Assembly (NCBI RefSeq): GCF_016065055.1
Contig: NZ_CP065856.1
Coordinates: 3,161,836 to 3,225,835, forward strand
Direction: 5' to 3'
Source: Halosimplex litoreum
GTDB lineage: Archaea > Halobacteriota > Halobacteria > Halobacteriales > Haloarculaceae
DNA: 64,000 nucleotides
This document shows, one piece after another, positions 19,102 through 27,374 of this stretch. Made by a program: the position numbers and the translations under genes. Numbering within the stretch: the stretch's first letter is position 1; each line of letters opens with the position of its first letter. Below the pieces are notes generated by a model. The model made no database searches, had not been told where the DNA came from, and worked only from the letters and a program-made list of their open reading frames with translations.

Positions 19102-21066
19102 ATGCCTCGCGATACTGACGACTCCGACACCAGCCGACGACGATTCCTGAAAGCGACCGGTGCGGCTGCCCTCACCTCCGCGGTAGCGGGCTGTGGAAGC
19201 GACGGTGGCGACACTGCCACGCCCGGCGACGGTGGCGACGGCGGTGACGGCGGTGACGACGGTGGCGACGGCGGCGACGGCGGGATGACCGACTCGGGGA
19301 CCGACAGCGACCCGATAACCGTAGACGGCTATCCCTACGGCGTCGGCGAGACGATGATCGGGGAGGCCCAGCGGGTGATGGAAGAGGCGGGTTACGGCCC
19401 GGACAACCGCTTCGAGCTCGACTGGCTCCAGTACGAGAGCCCGACCTGGGCGGAGATGGCGAGCACGATCGCCAGCCGACTCGAGTCCGCCTACATCGAC
19501 ATGAACCAGAGTTCGGCGGCGTTCTCGCCGCTGCTGGAGACCACCCGCAACGGCAACCACATGGCGTACACGCTCGGGTGGATCGCCGACTACCCCGGGC
19601 CGCAGAACTTCGTCCAGCTGATCGATCCGCCGAACACGACGTACGCCGACAACGCCGCGGCCAACGGTGCGCGACTGTTCTGGTCCGAGGACGCCGAGGC
19701 CGATCCGGAAGTCCGCCAGTACATGGTCGACCAGTTCGACCGCATCGAGGACAACCCACAGGACACCGAGGAGGCCGCCCAGATCCGCGGCGAGGCCGCG
19801 GTCGCGATGGAGGAGGGCATGTGGCAGGAGGCCGCGCTCATCCCCCTCTACCAGGGCGTGACCGAAGGAATGTGGTACGACCACGTCGACTACAACCCGC
19901 CGGGCCCGATGGGCCCGTCCCGCGCGAAGGCGAGCAACTCCGTCGCGGGACTGGAGGGGAAAGACCGCCTCAGCACCATCTCCTCGACGTTCAGCAGCCT
20001 CGACCCGATCGCCTCCGGCAACACGGCCTCCGGTGGCAAGATCATGGACATGTTCGACGCGCTGACGAACTACGCCAACGGGACGACGGAGGTCGAGAAC
20101 CTGTTGGCGACCGAGTACGAGCTCAGCGACGACTTCACCACCTACACGTTCACGCTCAAGGAGGGTGCCACGTTCCACAACGGTGACGAGGTCACCGCCC
20201 AGGACTTCGAGTACGCTATCAAGCGGTTGATGGTGTCGCCGAACTCCACGAACGCCCGGTTCCCGGTCAGCGTCATGGGGATCGAACACGAGACCGAGGA
20301 GGTCACCGTGACCGACGACGAGGGCAACACCGTCACGGACACTGCATCGGGCGAGGCGGAGACGACCACCCGGATCGTCCCCGACTCGATCGCCGTCAAC
20401 GCGGTCGACGACTACACGCTGGAGATCACGACGGAGAACCCGTTCGCGTTCTCGCTGTCCGTGCTGGCCTACTCCGCGTTCTCGGCGGTGCCCGAGGGCA
20501 TCGTCGGCGACGTCGAGGGCTACGAGGGCGAGATGTCCTGGAACGAGTTCTCCCAGAACCCGGTCGGCGCTGGTCCCTTCGAGTTCGTCAACTGGGAGTC
20601 GGGTAACGGCGGGGAGTTCGTCATGGACGCTTACGACGACTACCACGGCGACGGGGCGTCTTTCGACGGCATCGACGCGGCCATCCTCACCGAGACCCAG
20701 GCCCGCTACAACTACTTCCTCAACGAGAACGCCGATATCGGCACCGTTCCCACGGCGCAGTACCAGGCCGACAGCGTGAACATCGAGGAGACCGACGACG
20801 TCGGTCGCGACCTGGGGACCTACGACCTGGAGAACGGGACCTCGGTCAACTACGCCCGCACCCCGGACATCGGGACGTTCTACGTCGGCTTCAACATGGA
20901 GGCGGTGCCCAAGGCCGTCCGGCAGGCGATGGCGTACGTCGTCAACCAGCCGGAGTTCATGCAGAACGTGTTCAAGGGCCGCTTCGAGCCGGCCTATCAC
21001 CTGACGCCGCCGCAGATCTTCCCCGGCGGCATCGAGGCCTACGACGAACACGTCGGGTCGGAGTAA
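19102..21066 (+). CDS. dppA: Peptide-binding lipoprotein of ABC transporter, with circularly permuted domain order
   Basis: A 654-residue SBP family 5 protein. Residues 1-31 hold a Tat signal (SRRRFLK) and lipobox (AGC), followed by a Gly/Asp linker to about 72. Residues 77-270 (EEAGYGPDNRFELDW, then GWIADYPGPQNF, then ALIPLYQGVTEGMWY) match the normal C-terminal part of the family. Residues about 288-654 match the normal N-terminal and central part: LSTISSTFSSLDPIASG, TYTFTLKEGATFHNGDEVTA, NPVGAGPFEFVNW, then AVRQAMAYVVNQ and PAYHLTPPQ. The protein ends where the C-terminal part would normally begin. One uninterrupted frame spans it all. It heads the dppABCDF operon. Confidence 0.88.
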   Translation: MPRDTDDSDTSRRRFLKATGAAALTSAVAGCGSDGGDTATPGDGGDGGDGGDDGGDGGDGGMTDSGTDSDPITVDGYPYGVGETMIGEAQRVMEEAGYGPDNRFELDWLQYESPTWAEMASTIASRLESAYIDMNQSSAAFSPLLETTRNGNHMAYTLGWIADYPGPQNFVQLIDPPNTTYADNAAANGARLFWSEDAEADPEVRQYMVDQFDRIEDNPQDTEEAAQIRGEAAVAMEEGMWQEAALIPLYQGVTEGMWYDHVDYNPPGPMGPSRAKASNSVAGLEGKDRLSTISSTFSSLDPIASGNTASGGKIMDMFDALTNYANGTTEVENLLATEYELSDDFTTYTFTLKEGATFHNGDEVTAQDFEYAIKRLMVSPNSTNARFPVSVMGIEHETEEVTVTDDEGNTVTDTASGEAETTTRIVPDSIAVNAVDDYTLEITTENPFAFSLSVLAYSAFSAVPEGIVGDVEGYEGEMSWNEFSQNPVGAGPFEFVNWESGNGGEFVMDAYDDYHGDGASFDGIDAAILTETQARYNYFLNENADIGTVPTAQYQADSVNIEETDDVGRDLGTYDLENGTSVNYARTPDIGTFYVGFNMEAVPKAVRQAMAYVVNQPEFMQNVFKGRFEPAYHLTPPQIFPGGIEAYDEHVGSE

Positions 21067-21177: not shown

Positions 21178-22248
21178 ATGAACAAACTCCTGTATATCGC
21201 GAAACGGCTCGTCCTCGGGGTACCGGTCGTGCTGTTCGGCCTCACGATGACGTTCGTCATCATCTACCTGTCGCCGTTCGACCCGACGACGGCGATCCTC
21301 GGCCGCGACGCCGATCCCCAGACCGCCCGCCAGCTGGCCGTGGCGCTCGGCCTTCGATACCCGAACGGCCAGCCCATACCCCTGTGGATCCAGTACTGGA
21401 ACTTCCTGACCGACACGATCACGTTCAACTTCGGCCAGTCGTGGGTCGTCACCCGCGGCCAGTCGGCCGCCCAGCTCGTCTGGGAGCGCATGCCCGCGAC
21501 GATCTGGCTGGGCCTCTGGTCGGTCGTCATCGCGCTGGCGCTGGGCATCCCGCTCGGGCTCTACGCCGGTCTCCGGGCCAACACCTGGGGCGACTACACC
21601 GCTTCGTTCGGCGGGATCGTCTGGCGCGCCATGCCGAACTTCTGGCTGGCCGTGATGCTCGCCGGCGTCCTCTCGGCCGGCGGCGTGCTGTCGTTCTACC
21701 GGGGCTTTCTGATACCGACGGACGTGATCGGGACCCCAGCGGCGCTCGGCAACCTGTTCGGCAGTTACTCGCTGGGTCCGATCGGGATACCGGTCCCCGA
21801 CCCGTACAACTGGGCGGTCGCGTTCAAGTGGATCCTGCCGGCCGCGCTCGTGCTCGGCTCCTCCTCGATGGGCAACGAGGTCCGCATCGGCCGGACCGCC
21901 GTCCTGGAGAGCATCAACGCCCCCTACATCGACACGGCCAAGGCGAAGGGACTCTCCGAGCGGGTGATCATCGGGAAACACGTCGCCCGCAACGCGATGA
22001 TCCCGCTGCTCCCAGTCATCATGGGCGAGTTTTACCTGCTGATCGGGGGCTCGGTCCTCGTGGAACTCATCTTCGGGATCCGCGGGCTGGGGAACCTGTT
22101 CCTCTCGGCCGTCCTCGCGTCGGACGTCCCGATCATCGGCGCGCTCACATACGTGTTCATCCTGATACTCGTGTTCTTCAATATCGCACAAGACGTGGCG
22201 TACACCCTGATCGACCCGCGGATCGGACTGGAGGGTCAGGAGGACTGA
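21178..22248 (+). CDS. dppB: Peptide ABC transporter permease, DppB type
   Basis: A 356-residue inner permease subunit. The first span (LVLGVPVVLFGLTMTFVIIYL) is followed by the periplasmic loop typical of DppB/OppB. Five more spans follow, and the cytoplasmic EAA-type loop GRTAVLESINAPYIDTAKAKGLSE contacts the ATPases. The sequence RNAMIPLLPVIMGEFYLLIGGSVLVE is characteristic of the family. It starts 111 nt after the binding protein and ends 3 nt before dppC, so the genes are one transcription unit. Confidence 0.93.
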   Translation: MNKLLYIAKRLVLGVPVVLFGLTMTFVIIYLSPFDPTTAILGRDADPQTARQLAVALGLRYPNGQPIPLWIQYWNFLTDTITFNFGQSWVVTRGQSAAQLVWERMPATIWLGLWSVVIALALGIPLGLYAGLRANTWGDYTASFGGIVWRAMPNFWLAVMLAGVLSAGGVLSFYRGFLIPTDVIGTPAALGNLFGSYSLGPIGIPVPDPYNWAVAFKWILPAALVLGSSSMGNEVRIGRTAVLESINAPYIDTAKAKGLSERVIIGKHVARNAMIPLLPVIMGEFYLLIGGSVLVELIFGIRGLGNLFLSAVLASDVPIIGALTYVFILILVFFNIAQDVAYTLIDPRIGLEGQED

Positions 22249-22251
22249 AAG

Positions 22252-23799
22252 ATGTGTGCAACTGTCACGGACACGGGTCGCGACCGGGACCGCCGTGAAG
22301 AGTCGACGCTGCGCGAACGGCTGTTGGCGAACCCCGAACCCGCGTTGCGGTGGGGCACGGTCGCGTTCGTGCTCGTCGCGGTCGAGTTCGGCGCGCTCGC
22401 AGGCGGGCTCTTGCTGTTGCTCGACGCGACGGTCATCGGGGTCACCGCGCTGATCGAGGTGATCCTCGGTGCCGTCTCACAGAGCGCCGGCGAAGCGGTG
22501 TACGCCGCCCAGCAGTCGGCCAGCGGCTTCCTCGACGGGCTCCGGGCGGCCGCCGGGAACGTTCCGACGCTCCTCTCGCGGGAGACGATCCCCAACCAGG
22601 GGTACCAGACGGGGCCGTCGGGCCCCTGGGAGGGCACGTTCCTCGGGCTGCAGCCGGCGGTGGCGTGGGCGATCCGACTCGTCCTCGTCTACCTGTACGC
22701 GGCGATCGTGTGCTACTGGGCCTACCGCGGCTGGCTCGTCTTCCGCGACCACTACCGTCAGGTCGACTGGACGCCTCGTGACGACGTCGTCGACCGCCTG
22801 CGCGACCACCGCTGGGGGCAGTTCGGCATCGTCGTCGTGCTCGTGTTCGTGACGATGGCGGTGTTCTCCCCGGCGCTCGGGCCGACCACGGTTGAGCAGA
22901 ACATCCAGTCGCCCTACAGCTACGAACTACAGTACTTCGACGCCGAGAGCGGGAGCGTCGAGACGGTCTACGCGGGCGACGCGAACTTCAACTCCAAGTC
23001 GAAGGGGCAGGGTGACCAGAACGTCGGGCCGATGACCTACGACGACTACGGCCGGTTCCACCCGTTCGGGACGTTGACGAACGGCCGCGACCTGTTCACC
23101 TTCGCGGTGGCCGGCGCCCGGGTCTCGATGATGGTCGGGGCGCTGTCGATCGTGCTCGCGTCGCTACTCGCGATCGCCGCGTCGATGATGTCGGCGTACT
23201 ACAAGGGACTGGTCGACCTGGTGACCATCCTCGTCGCCGACGGGATCACCTCCATACCGGGGCTGCTCCTGTTGTTGATGGTCGGGATGGCCTTCCAGGG
23301 ACACTGGCTGGTGAACGTGCTCAACGGCGGGTTCCTCTACGCGTTGACCTTCGGGATCATCCTCTTCCCGAGCCTGTGGCGGTCGGTGCGGGGCCCCGCG
23401 CTCCAGGTCTCCGAGGAGGAGTGGATCGACGCCGCCAAGAGCTTCGGTCAGCGGCCGCGGACGACCATGCGCAAGCACATGCTCCCGTACGTAGTGCCGT
23501 ACCTGCTCGTCTACGGGTCGATGACCGTCGGCGGCGTCATCATCTCGATGGCGGCGCTGTCGTTCATCGGCAGCGGGCTCGGGATCAACCCACCGACGCC
23601 CGCCTGGGGGCGCGCCATCGACATGGGACGGAACTACGTCTCGACGCAGTCGTGGCACATCGCCTTCATCCCGGGGATGTTCATCGTCGTGCTCGTCACC
23701 GGGCTCAACGCCTTCGGTGACGGTATTCGCGACGCCATCGACCCCGAGAGCGAGGGCGGCGGTGAAGAGGAAGCGGCCGCAGGGGGTGCCGCCGGATGA
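22252..23799 (+). CDS. dppC: Peptide ABC transporter permease, DppC type, with long N-terminal half
   Basis: A 515-residue protein, clearly longer than the roughly 300 residues usual for DppC. The C-terminal half (about 280-500) is the standard permease, with EAA loop EEEWIDAAKSFGQRPRTTM and LSFIGSGLGINPPTPAWGRAI. The N-terminal 190 residues add about three extra membrane spans (residues 35-65, 140-160, 195-215) and a roughly 75-residue external loop. Extended DppC proteins are common in haloarchaea. Its stop overlaps the dppD start as ATGA. Confidence 0.9.
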   Translation: MCATVTDTGRDRDRREESTLRERLLANPEPALRWGTVAFVLVAVEFGALAGGLLLLLDATVIGVTALIEVILGAVSQSAGEAVYAAQQSASGFLDGLRAAAGNVPTLLSRETIPNQGYQTGPSGPWEGTFLGLQPAVAWAIRLVLVYLYAAIVCYWAYRGWLVFRDHYRQVDWTPRDDVVDRLRDHRWGQFGIVVVLVFVTMAVFSPALGPTTVEQNIQSPYSYELQYFDAESGSVETVYAGDANFNSKSKGQGDQNVGPMTYDDYGRFHPFGTLTNGRDLFTFAVAGARVSMMVGALSIVLASLLAIAASMMSAYYKGLVDLVTILVADGITSIPGLLLLLMVGMAFQGHWLVNVLNGGFLYALTFGIILFPSLWRSVRGPALQVSEEEWIDAAKSFGQRPRTTMRKHMLPYVVPYLLVYGSMTVGGVIISMAALSFIGSGLGINPPTPAWGRAIDMGRNYVSTQSWHIAFIPGMFIVVLVTGLNAFGDGIRDAIDPESEGGGEEEAAAGGAAG

Positions 23800-24971
23800 G
23801 CGCCCCACCTTCGGGCGACGGCGCCGAGGACGTGCCGACGGGTCGACGGACCGACGAGGAGCCCGTCCTCTCGGTGCGGAACCTCCAGACGGTGTTCCGG
23901 ACCGACCGCGAGACTATCCGCGCGGTCGACGGTATCGACCTCGAACTCTACGAGGGCGAAACCGTCGGCCTCGTCGGCGAGTCCGGGTCGGGCAAGTCAG
24001 TCACCGCCCGGTCGATCATGGGGCTCGTCGAAGAGCCCGGCGAGGTCCTCCCCGGGTCGTCGATCCGGTTCGATGGCGAGGAGATCACCGGCTACGACAC
24101 GGCGCAGTACCAGGAACTCCGGGGCAGCGGCATCGGGATGATCTTCCAGGACCCGCTGTCGTCGCTGAACCCTGTGTTCACCGTCGGCAACCAGATCCGC
24201 GAGGCGCTGAAGGTCAACCAGGGGATCACCGGCGAGGCGGCCCGCGAGGAGGCGATCGACCTGCTCGAAGCGGTCCAGATCCCCGACGCGGCTCGGCGGC
24301 TGGGGGAGTACCCCCACGAGTTCTCCGGCGGGATGCGCCAGCGGGCGGTCATCGCGATGATGCTCGCCTGCGACCCCGAGGTGTTGATCTGCGACGAGCC
24401 GACGACCGCGCTGGACGTGACCATCCAGGCGCAGATCCTCGAACTGCTCTCGGACCTGCAGGACGAGCGGGGCCTGTCGATCCTCTTTATTACCCACGAC
24501 ATGGGTGTCATCGCCGACATCACCGACCGCGTGAACGTGATGTACGCCGGCGAGATCGTCGAGAAGGCGCCGACCGAGGAGCTGTTCGCCGACCCCCGCC
24601 ACCCCTATACGGAGGGGCTGCTCGAAGCGATCCCCGGCCAGCACGCCGGCGAGGAGCGCCTGCGGACCATCGAGGGCGAAGTGCCGACGCCGAACGAGGC
24701 GGCGACGTACTGTCGGTTCGCCCCGCGGTGTCCGAAGGCCTTCGAGGAGTGCGAGGCGGTCCACCCCGAACTCGTCGACGTCGACGACGGCCCGGCCGAC
24801 CACACCGCGGCCTGTCTGCTCTACCCGGAGGAGATGACGACCGGCGAGGCCGTCGCCCACCACGAGCGTCTGGGCGAGGCGCGCGACGGCGACGGGACGA
24901 CGGGCTCGGCCGGAGGGGACGCGCCCGATTCTGGCGGAGACGTGGCGGCCGACGGGGGTGACGCCCGGTGA
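23796..24971 (+). CDS. dppD: Peptide ABC transporter ATPase, DppD type, with four-Cys motif
   Basis: A 391-residue ATPase. Walker A is GESGSGKS, signature FSGGMRQRAVIAMML, Walker B VLICDEPTTALD, and H-loop ITHDMG. The C-terminal oligopeptide-transport extension carries cysteines 306, 312, 319 and 340 (YCRFAPRCPK...EEC...HTAAC). This spacing is known from OppD-type ATPases and has been shown to hold an iron-sulphur cluster in at least one relative. The last 45 residues are a disordered acidic tail. It overlaps dppC by ATGA and dppF by GTGA. Confidence 0.92.
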   Translation: MSAPPSGDGAEDVPTGRRTDEEPVLSVRNLQTVFRTDRETIRAVDGIDLELYEGETVGLVGESGSGKSVTARSIMGLVEEPGEVLPGSSIRFDGEEITGYDTAQYQELRGSGIGMIFQDPLSSLNPVFTVGNQIREALKVNQGITGEAAREEAIDLLEAVQIPDAARRLGEYPHEFSGGMRQRAVIAMMLACDPEVLICDEPTTALDVTIQAQILELLSDLQDERGLSILFITHDMGVIADITDRVNVMYAGEIVEKAPTEELFADPRHPYTEGLLEAIPGQHAGEERLRTIEGEVPTPNEAATYCRFAPRCPKAFEECEAVHPELVDVDDGPADHTAACLLYPEEMTTGEAVAHHERLGEARDGDGTTGSAGGDAPDSGGDVAADGGDAR

Positions 24972-26308
24972 GCGAGATGACCCAGCCCCGCGGTCGAACA
25001 GACGCCGCCGCGGTCGGCGAGACGCTCGTCGAGGTCGACGGGCTGAAGAAGTACTACGGCGGCGGCGGCCTCCTCGCGGACCCACCGGTCAAGGCCGTCG
25101 ACGGCGTGAGCTTCCAGATCCAGCGCGGCGAGACGCTCGGGCTGGTCGGCGAGTCCGGCTGCGGGAAGACGACGCTCGGCCGCACGCTCGTCCAACTGGA
25201 GACGGCCACCGAGGGCACCGTCGAGTTCGACGGCACCGACGTGACCGAGCTCTCGGGCCAGCGACTCAAACAGTGGCGCCGCAACGCCCAGATCGTCTTC
25301 CAGGACCCCGAATCGAGCCTCAACGACCGGATGACGATCGGCGAGATCGTCCGCGAACCGCTGGACGTTCACGAGGAGGGGACGCCCCGCGAGCGCCAGG
25401 AGAAAGTGAAGGACCTGCTGGCGCAGGTCGGGCTCCAGCCCGAGCACTACTACCGCTACCCCCACCAGTTCTCCGGCGGCCAGCGCCAGCGGATCGGGAT
25501 CGCCCGCGCGCTGGCGCTCGAACCGGAGTTCGTCGTCCTCGACGAGCCCGTCTCCGCGCTGGACACCTCCGTCCAGGCGAAGATCCTCAACCTGCTGGAG
25601 GACCTGCAGGACGAGTTCGACCTGACCTACCTCTTTATCGCCCACGACCTCTCGGCGGTGCGGCACATCTGCGACCGCGTCGCGGTGATGTACCTCGGGA
25701 AGATCATGGAGATGGGCGACACCGAGGAGCTGTACACCGACCCGGCCAACCCCTACACCCACTCGCTGTTGTCGGCGATCCCCGAACCCGACCCGACGGT
25801 CGAGAAAGACCGGATCACGCTGCCGGGGACGCCGCCGAGCCCGCGGGACCCGCCGACGGGGTGTCAGTTTACCACCCGCTGTCCGGCGAAGATCCACCCG
25901 CCGGAGTACGACCACCTCGACGCGGAGACGTGGAACGCCATCGAGCGGTTCCGCGAGGTGATCCGCGAGCGCACCCGGATCGACCTGTCGATCCGCGACC
26001 GGGTCCGCCGGAGCGTCGGCGCCTTCCACCGGTTCGACGACATCGACGAGACCGTCACCGACATGTTCGACGACGGCACGCCCGACGACGTCCGGAGCCA
26101 CGTCGAACGGGCCGCCGAGTACGTCAAGGCGGGCCAGCCGGACCGGGCCCGCGAGTACATGGGCGAGCAGTTCGACGGCGTCTGCGACACCGAACGGCCG
26201 GAGCTGTACCCGGTCGGCGAGACCGACCGACTGAGTTACTGTCACCGCCACGCCGAGGAGTACGAGAGCGTCGAGTCGGTGCTCGGCCGCGGGTCGGATG
26301 GCGAGTAA
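24968..26308 (+). CDS. dppF: Peptide ABC transporter ATPase, DppF type, with insertion in the Cys motif
   Basis: A 446-residue ATPase, about 100 longer than typical DppF. It begins with GTG overlapping the dppD stop. Walker A is GESGCGKTTLG, signature FSGGQRQRIGIARAL, Walker B FVVLDEPVSALD, H-loop IAHDLS. The C-terminal motif starts normally with Cys299 and Cys305 (GCQFTTRCP). The expected third and fourth cysteines appear only at 406 and 425 (VCDTERPELYPVG...LSYCH). In between lies a largely helical charged insert (about residues 310-400). It pairs with DppD to drive peptide uptake. Confidence 0.92.
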   Translation: MSEMTQPRGRTDAAAVGETLVEVDGLKKYYGGGGLLADPPVKAVDGVSFQIQRGETLGLVGESGCGKTTLGRTLVQLETATEGTVEFDGTDVTELSGQRLKQWRRNAQIVFQDPESSLNDRMTIGEIVREPLDVHEEGTPRERQEKVKDLLAQVGLQPEHYYRYPHQFSGGQRQRIGIARALALEPEFVVLDEPVSALDTSVQAKILNLLEDLQDEFDLTYLFIAHDLSAVRHICDRVAVMYLGKIMEMGDTEELYTDPANPYTHSLLSAIPEPDPTVEKDRITLPGTPPSPRDPPTGCQFTTRCPAKIHPPEYDHLDAETWNAIERFREVIRERTRIDLSIRDRVRRSVGAFHRFDDIDETVTDMFDDGTPDDVRSHVERAAEYVKAGQPDRAREYMGEQFDGVCDTERPELYPVGETDRLSYCHRHAEEYESVESVLGRGSDGE

Positions 26309-26792: not shown

Positions 26793-27374
26793 ATGCCCCA
26801 CCACGCCGATAGCCCGGACGACGTCGACCGGAAGGAGATCGTCGCCGACCACAGCGAGGAACTGACGAGCAACTGGGAGCGCGCGCTCGAAGACATGCAG
26901 GCGATGGCCGAGGACCGCGAGAAGCAGGGCTACGAGACGCTGGCGATCCCCGCGGGCGACACGACGACGCTGTCGCCCTCGATGGGCGACGACGACGCCT
27001 GGGGGCTCTCGTACGTCGTCCCGAACAACTTCGCCGAGGAGTTCGAGACGCTGTTCGAGACGTTCACCCTCGACGAGACGGGCGTCTACCAGATGGAGGC
27101 CGGCGGGTTCGTCTTCGTCGTGACCGAGTGCATCGACCACGACGCGGAGGTCGTGATCTTCGTCGCCGGGTCGTACGACATGCGCTTCTCGGCCGGTCTC
27201 GTCCGCACCGCCGTCGAACGCGGGGCGATGCACACCCACGTCAAGACCCTCGACGGCACGCTCCTGGGCACGTTCGACCACGACGACCCCGCCGACTTCT
27301 TCCCCGAACCCGAGCAGTTCTACGCCTACGACATCACCGAGAGCGACGACCCCGAGCGCCGCTCGGACCGATAG
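26793..27374 (+). CDS. Conserved hypothetical acidic cytoplasmic protein
   Basis: A 193-residue soluble acidic protein. The N-terminal 60 residues look helical (ELTSNWERALEDMQAMAEDREKQGY). The rest appears to be an alpha/beta domain with strands VFVVTECID and VVIFVAGSYD and a histidine-containing AMHTHVKTLDG. It has no signal peptide or membrane span. I recognise it only as a haloarchaeal conserved protein without an assigned function. The ATG at 26793 is the first in frame and the composition is typical from there on. Confidence 0.7.
   Translation: MPHHADSPDDVDRKEIVADHSEELTSNWERALEDMQAMAEDREKQGYETLAIPAGDTTTLSPSMGDDDAWGLSYVVPNNFAEEFETLFETFTLDETGVYQMEAGGFVFVVTECIDHDAEVVIFVAGSYDMRFSAGLVRTAVERGAMHTHVKTLDGTLLGTFDHDDPADFFPEPEQFYAYDITESDDPERRSDR

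Follow-up and report, generated by a model that had tools for sequence, protein, structure and literature searches.

A putatively peptide-binding haloarchaeal lipoprotein with a circularly permuted chain, one of several independent permutations in its family

The substrate-binding proteins (SBPs) of family 5, such as DppA, OppA and MppA (PF00496; 1dpp, 1ola and 3o9p), are built from the same sequence segments as the protein described here, and the SBP gene stands first in operons of the dppBCDF type. In Halobacterium salinarum, transcription of one such operon (dppA-B1-C2-oppD2-ykfD) has been studied; dppA is taken there for an ordinary DppA, and no mention of the segment order of the protein was found (PMC4299497). 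A naturally permuted SBP has been described in another structural cluster: TpMglB-2 of Treponema pallidum (Tp0684, 'Type Ic/Cluster Bc') is likewise lipid-anchored and encoded beside ABC transporter genes, and it binds its ligand and changes conformation (PMC4990184).

Here we examine a family-5 gene of Halosimplex litoreum within a stretch of 64,000 nucleotides of its genome (hereafter, the window). The gene is a single unbroken frame (19102-21066, +) encoding a protein (P0001) of 654 residues, in which profile matches and comparison with homologues place the segments in the order signal, tether, C1, C2, junction and N, an order that defines topology CP-A. A Tat signal (RRRFLK) and a lipobox ending at Cys31 (19102-19194, +), recognized in the sequence with the help of a weak match to Pfam TAT_signal, lead into a Gly/Asp-rich tether of some 40 residues (residues 32-75; 19195-19326, +). 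The old C-terminal third (C1 plus C2, with the segments EEAGYGPDNRF, GWIADYPGPQNF and ALIPLYQG) follows at residues 76-270 (19327-19911, +) and is connected to the old N-terminal two thirds by a junction that runs from the old C-terminus to the old N-terminus (residues 271-290; 19912-19971, +; sequence PMGPSRAKASNSVAGLEGKDRLSTISS). The N part occupies residues 291-654 (19972-21063, +) and ends at the new C-terminus, PGGIEAYDEHVGSE. Within the relocated third, a GWxxDY motif contains Asp163 (19588-19590, +), a residue invariant in alignments of CP-A proteins, which we take to be the counterpart of the OppA Asp that binds the peptide amino group.

The rotated order is evident from profiles of two kinds. 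Positions 1-259 of PF00496 (SBP_bac_5) correspond to window residues 330-648, with 169 bits for that part alone, and positions 262-360 to a piece around residues 81-174 (35.2 bits, against a cut-off of 32.4); both parts lie above the cut-off of the profile and jointly cover positions 1-259 and 262-360 of its 368. Hidden Markov models (HMMs) of C1, C2 and N, trained solely on 53 canonically ordered haloarchaeal homologues, matched residues 77-180 (137.7 bits), 212-274 (68.4 bits) and 294-648 (450.5 bits), respectively, and none of 1000 shuffles of the window protein reached E<1 with these models. The canonical SBP_bac_5 order is N...C1-C2 and that of the window protein is C1-C2-N; each segment is present once, the order is rotated, the old termini are joined and the new termini lie inside the old chain. 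A Pfam scan of the protein returned nothing besides PF00496 and the Tat signal, and did not assign it to Cluster B. Its segments thus read as those of a circular permutant of SBP_bac_5 and Cluster C, rather than those of an ordinary member. The first-pass annotation had anticipated much of this arrangement, describing an uninterrupted frame, a C-terminal third right behind signal and linker, first-part segments starting near residue 290, a linker of about 15 residues between the old termini and a stop at residue 654 after PGGIEAYDEHVGSE. Its coordinates prove good to a few residues (the linker measures about 14) and, when the two parts are aligned separately to SBP_bac_5 profiles, as it had proposed, each matches, in swapped order.

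Downstream lie the genes of a DppB-type permease (21178-22248, +; Pfam BPD_transp_1 and BPD_transp_1_N, with NCBIfam agreeing), a DppC-type permease of 515 residues with an N-terminal extension (22252-23799, +; Pfam BPD_transp_1 and OppC_N), a DppD-type ATPase (23796-24971, +) and a DppF-type ATPase (24968-26308, +), the last two each matching Pfam ABC_tran and oligo_HPY. The SBP gene is therefore adjoined by the two BPD permeases and two oligo_HPY ATPases that characterize a Dpp/Opp importer, and the complete dpp operon that had been read from the letters is indeed present (21178-26308). Two canonical paralogues are also encoded in this genome; their identity across the N part is about 44%, and each is accompanied by a DppBCDF set of its own. 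The extension of the DppC-type permease consists of about 170 additional residues ahead of OppC_N (22252-22770, +), apparently including extra membrane-spanning stretches, and a gene for a DUF7529 protein (26793-27374, +; Pfam E=2e-61) lies just downstream of the dpp genes. A sigma-70 promoter scan of the window gave no result; the sigma-70 model is inapplicable to archaea.

The genome that contains the window is assembled as one contig and is 99.7% complete. Each of the genus's seven other genomes shows the CP-A order (80-93% identity), and so do 40 distinct haloarchaeal genes from many genera, with records from Halosimplex species, Halobacterium salinarum DSM 3754, Haloquadratum walsbyi and Halorubrum distributum, and further ones from Halorhabdus, Halolamina, Halosegnis, Halapricum and Halonotius. 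Close homologues in the ancestral order would have spoken against the original proposal; the nearest homologues share the permuted order. Comparison with congeners gave dN/dS values of 0.13-0.22 for the C part and 0.11-0.29 for the N part. The junction shows zero non-synonymous differences from the two nearest congeners and dN/dS values of 0.09-0.21 against the others, and the tether, at 0.26-0.57, is the least constrained part of the protein.

The window gene belongs to a wider set. Family-5 open reading frames of 207 loci were sorted by segment order into 154 distinct genes, among which 53 were canonical, 40 were CP-A (C1-C2-N), 38 were CP-B (C2-N-C1) and two were CP-C (N2-C1-C2-N1); when 392 genomes of the order were scanned with the junction peptide, at least some 70 of them gave colinear junction matches. 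Motifs of export are widespread among the permuted genes, the RR motif and the lipobox being present, as pattern matches only, in 40/40 CP-A, 36/38 CP-B and 2/2 CP-C genes. Permease genes lie downstream at 33 of the 34 CP-A loci that are long enough to judge, at 34 of 36 CP-B loci and at both CP-C loci. Junction linkers measure 11-18 residues in all haloarchaeal events; of the 40 CP-A genes, 38 have a linker of 14.

Trees of SBPs were built after permuted sequences had been rotated back to canonical order. CP-A formed one clade (support 98-99) placed among canonical rows (support 90-93), and this placement implies descent from a canonically ordered ancestor, of which CP-D (see below) provides the clearest case. 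CP-B was split into a large clade and a lone gene from a complete genome (L026, genome G021) that nests, with support of 98-99 and at 68% identity, among canonical Halomarina relatives. The two CP-C genes sit in separate canonical neighbourhoods; numbered on the canonical homologue L096, both breaks fall at residue 173-175. In total, the trees show five topology changes in haloarchaea; note that support for some branches is moderate (86-94) and that the deep placement of the large haloarchaeal CP-B clade is uncertain. Approximately unbiased (AU) tests rejected a single clade for CP-B (p=0.004), for CP-C (p=0.004) and for CP-A together with CP-B (p=0.0008). There are five haloarchaeal events, and the break regions match between the two origins of CP-B (B1/B2) and between the two of CP-C (C1/C2). 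What the first-pass annotation saw therefore holds and is part of a larger phenomenon, the window gene being one of several independent permutations of this family at different breakpoints.

The search with junction profiles was carried beyond haloarchaea, in scans that covered Halobacteriota, and revealed a fourth topology in the same phylum, CP-D, which is broken inside C1. One non-haloarchaeal genus carries CP-D in three genomes (L235, L236 and L237) and the canonical orthologue in four (L269-L272), the two forms being 86-89% identical across the old N-terminal part; at the DNA level, identity is about 80%. No canonical copy was seen alongside CP-D in its three genomes, and in the tree the three CP-D sequences adjoin the four canonical orthologues, with a canonical outgroup. 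The CP-D gene is divergent beside its DppBCDF genes, whereas the canonical outgroup (L277, genome G443) has its SBP gene immediately upstream of that operon and colinear with it. The canonical orthologue starts with CAQQ..KEEVKALTIGV, continues internally with ..AGYSEDNKLKLELWW (..NKLKLELWW) and ends with ..RYYLVYETT. The CP-D protein starts with CAQQ..QKEEAKKLKIELWW (CAQQ..QKEEAK/KLKIELWW, the slash marking the seam), ends with ..AGYSE and carries the junction ..RYYLVYSEEQKDTITIGV, with its seam at RYYLVY/SEEQKDTITIGV. In these strings, the signal peptide and tether of CP-D are fused to the inner break, and its junction resembles the C-terminal tail of the old chain joined to a remnant of the old N-terminal tail minus its cysteine.

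Two further groups of permuted genes were recovered. The gene at L234 shows the CP-D order in a different paralogue (a 588-aa open reading frame). Its product has no lipobox and a PGF-CTERM-like C-terminal end (TPGFGVIAVIAGVMAATYLLRRRR), and may be anchored via the opposite end of the chain. Genes L273-L276 have the CP-B order and encode proteins of about 710 residues; they belong to a distant group of family 5 that is longer by about 100 residues, and a DppB-like permease gene lies downstream. Kinship of this group (B3) with haloarchaeal CP-B was rejected by an AU test that involves long branches (p=0.014). L234 and L273-L276 probably represent two further events. At least six, and probably eight, independent permutations have consequently occurred in the family within this one phylum, and the events fall at four break regions.

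These permutations probably arose by duplication, fusion and trimming. A tandem duplication of the coding region would have been followed by in-frame fusion of the two copies and by trimming, in which the first copy lost its front (downstream of the signal) and the second copy its back. Such a history would leave the Tat signal, lipobox and tether in front, place the old C-terminal third directly behind them, join the old C- and N-termini through a short peptide derived from the two old tails, and set the new termini in a surface loop. The CP-D seams are made of old tails and so fit this route with the signal peptide kept in place, and the sequences of the haloarchaeal junctions, in which an MGPSRQK-like old tail is followed by an EGxxL-like start, admit the same reading. 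Fused tandem intermediates (N-C-N-C) were absent among the loci examined, and the duplication-fusion route is consequently one that we infer. The open frame of L199, 975 residues from stop to stop, contains one permuted copy and a long open stretch upstream. No remnants of lost segments were found beyond the stop codon in L162, L166 or L026, and a search for internal DNA repeats as marks of duplication returned only a match of TVEQ and GTCGAACAG at the ends of the CP-C gene L162, which is too short to serve as one.

Our main reading, to which we assign a probability of roughly 0.87, is that the window protein is a working SBP of a Dpp/Opp-type peptide importer whose chain is circularly permuted. 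It would work as any DppA does, being exported by the Tat route, anchored by lipid, closing on peptide between its two lobes and docking on DppB-DppC. AlphaFold2, given 22 CP-A rows, modelled the permuted protein poorly (pLDDT 47.5, pTM 0.41, with partial Foldseek matches only, and hence uninformative on topology), and for a canonical relative with 23 rows it reached a pLDDT of 85.2 with full-length matches to the OppA/MppA/DppA fold (Z ~33). It is thus from conservation that we infer an intact Cluster C fold; peptide as the ligand and docking on the permeases are likewise presumed. The difference in model quality at similar alignment depth suggests a possible benchmark case for structure prediction.

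The rotation has a consequence for anchoring. The domains of OppA comprise residues 1-44, 189-269 and 487-517 (I), 45-188 (II) and 270-486 (III) (PMC6305025). Breaks were mapped onto these limits by profile alignment to solved family members and, by sequence alignment rather than coordinates, the old termini lie in domain I, the CP-A, CP-B and CP-D breaks in domain III, and the CP-C break in domain II. The lipid anchor would consequently move to another domain, with segments and operon unchanged, and the attachment point in the window protein would be domain III, on the other lobe, rather than domain I. DppA of E. coli, when in complex, grips the scoop of DppB in its cleft (PMC12136057). An anchor on the other lobe could alter the seating of the protein on the translocator, but with tethers of about 40 residues the shift may be irrelevant.

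Whether the shift of the anchor was itself selected is the question on which explanations of the permutations divide. At slightly better than even odds, the permutations are neutral: with native termini near each other and loops tolerant of a cut, duplication and deletion behind a retained signal would have been fixed by drift and would have left function unchanged. The linkers, short as they are, are enough, both parts of the protein are under ordinary purifying selection, the permease context is identical across forms, and the breaks fall at loops or a helix edge in the canonical model. Drift accounts less readily for whole clades that retain one permuted order, with no reversion to the canonical order seen among the 40 CP-A genes, or for repeated identical break sites, which exceed the minimum needed.

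A more doubtful proposal is that selection favoured shifting the anchor off domain I, which would alter the reach of the protein or its seating on DppBC, and that the recurring breaks are favoured anchor sites. All haloarchaeal permuted forms keep signal and tether in front, every break lies outside domain I by alignment, break regions recur independently (B1/B2, and C1/C2 at an identical residue), and a like idea has been proposed for the tethered TpMglB-2 (PMC4990184). Against it stand the length of the tethers (some 40 residues for the window protein) and the fact that canonical and permuted relatives have a common operon type and coexist in one genome; recurring breaks may merely mark loops that tolerate a cut. 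In a tentative extension of this proposal, the Cluster C SBPs of Halobacteriota would be a permutation hotspot in which selection on tether position has repeatedly moved the anchor to one of a small number of permitted loops, through duplication, fusion and trimming downstream of the kept signal peptide, with one genus nearly fresh from the event.

A single ancient haloarchaeal permutation, later scattered into CP-B and CP-C by gene conversion, transfer or tree error, is very improbable. Joined old termini are common to all permuted forms and the deep branches of the trees are weak, but the AU tests reject this scenario, with p=3e-10 for one clade of all permuted haloarchaeal rows. A DppB-DppC-DppD tree, which contains no permuted segments, agrees with multiple origins and again reveals two for CP-B and two for CP-C, on starred branches. 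Moreover, three different breakpoints require separate events regardless, and CP-D is derived within one genus. Assembly error, chimera or gene decay, suggested by nothing apart from the odd order, can be set aside because 40 distinct genes and eight assemblies of the genus, of which several are complete, keep that order, and because purifying selection acts on the gene, with dN/dS of 0.11-0.29 across both halves; the misassembly that the first-pass annotation wished to exclude is thereby ruled out, and its proposal of a circular permutation with the signal peptide kept in front is supported by sequence, homologues, trees and operon context.

Natural circular permutations are mostly inferred from a single ancient protein pair. 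Here, one family offers several events that arose independently and whose break regions match between separate lineages, and the CP-D event is young, normal and permuted orthologues being found within one genus at about 80% DNA identity. Repeated permutations with recurring cut points constitute rare natural before-and-after experiments on protein topology. They also indicate that well-studied haloarchaea carry a family-5 topology missed by domain annotation and default structure prediction.

Compared with DppA, OppA and MppA, the window protein has its segment order rotated and its anchor placed at domain III, not domain I. The CP-A gene at locus L085 of Halobacterium salinarum precedes the same set of four transporter genes as in the window and, to judge by the operon, would be the dppA of the transcription study (PMC4299497). 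Our search of the literature, in which coverage of subscription journals was limited, found no report of permuted family-5 proteins, and TpMglB-2 was the only natural permuted SBP that it returned. That protein is a glucose-binding member of Cluster B with re-ordered N-lobe strands and a fourth hinge crossing, whereas the window type is a Tat-exported, archaeal family-5 protein of Cluster C; and the TpMglB-2 study describes one permuted family (PMC4990184), whereas here there are several separate origins and several breakpoints. A permuted SBP as such therefore has precedent in another cluster, and what surprises is that permutation arose repeatedly, that breakpoints recur and that one genus preserves both the before and the after.
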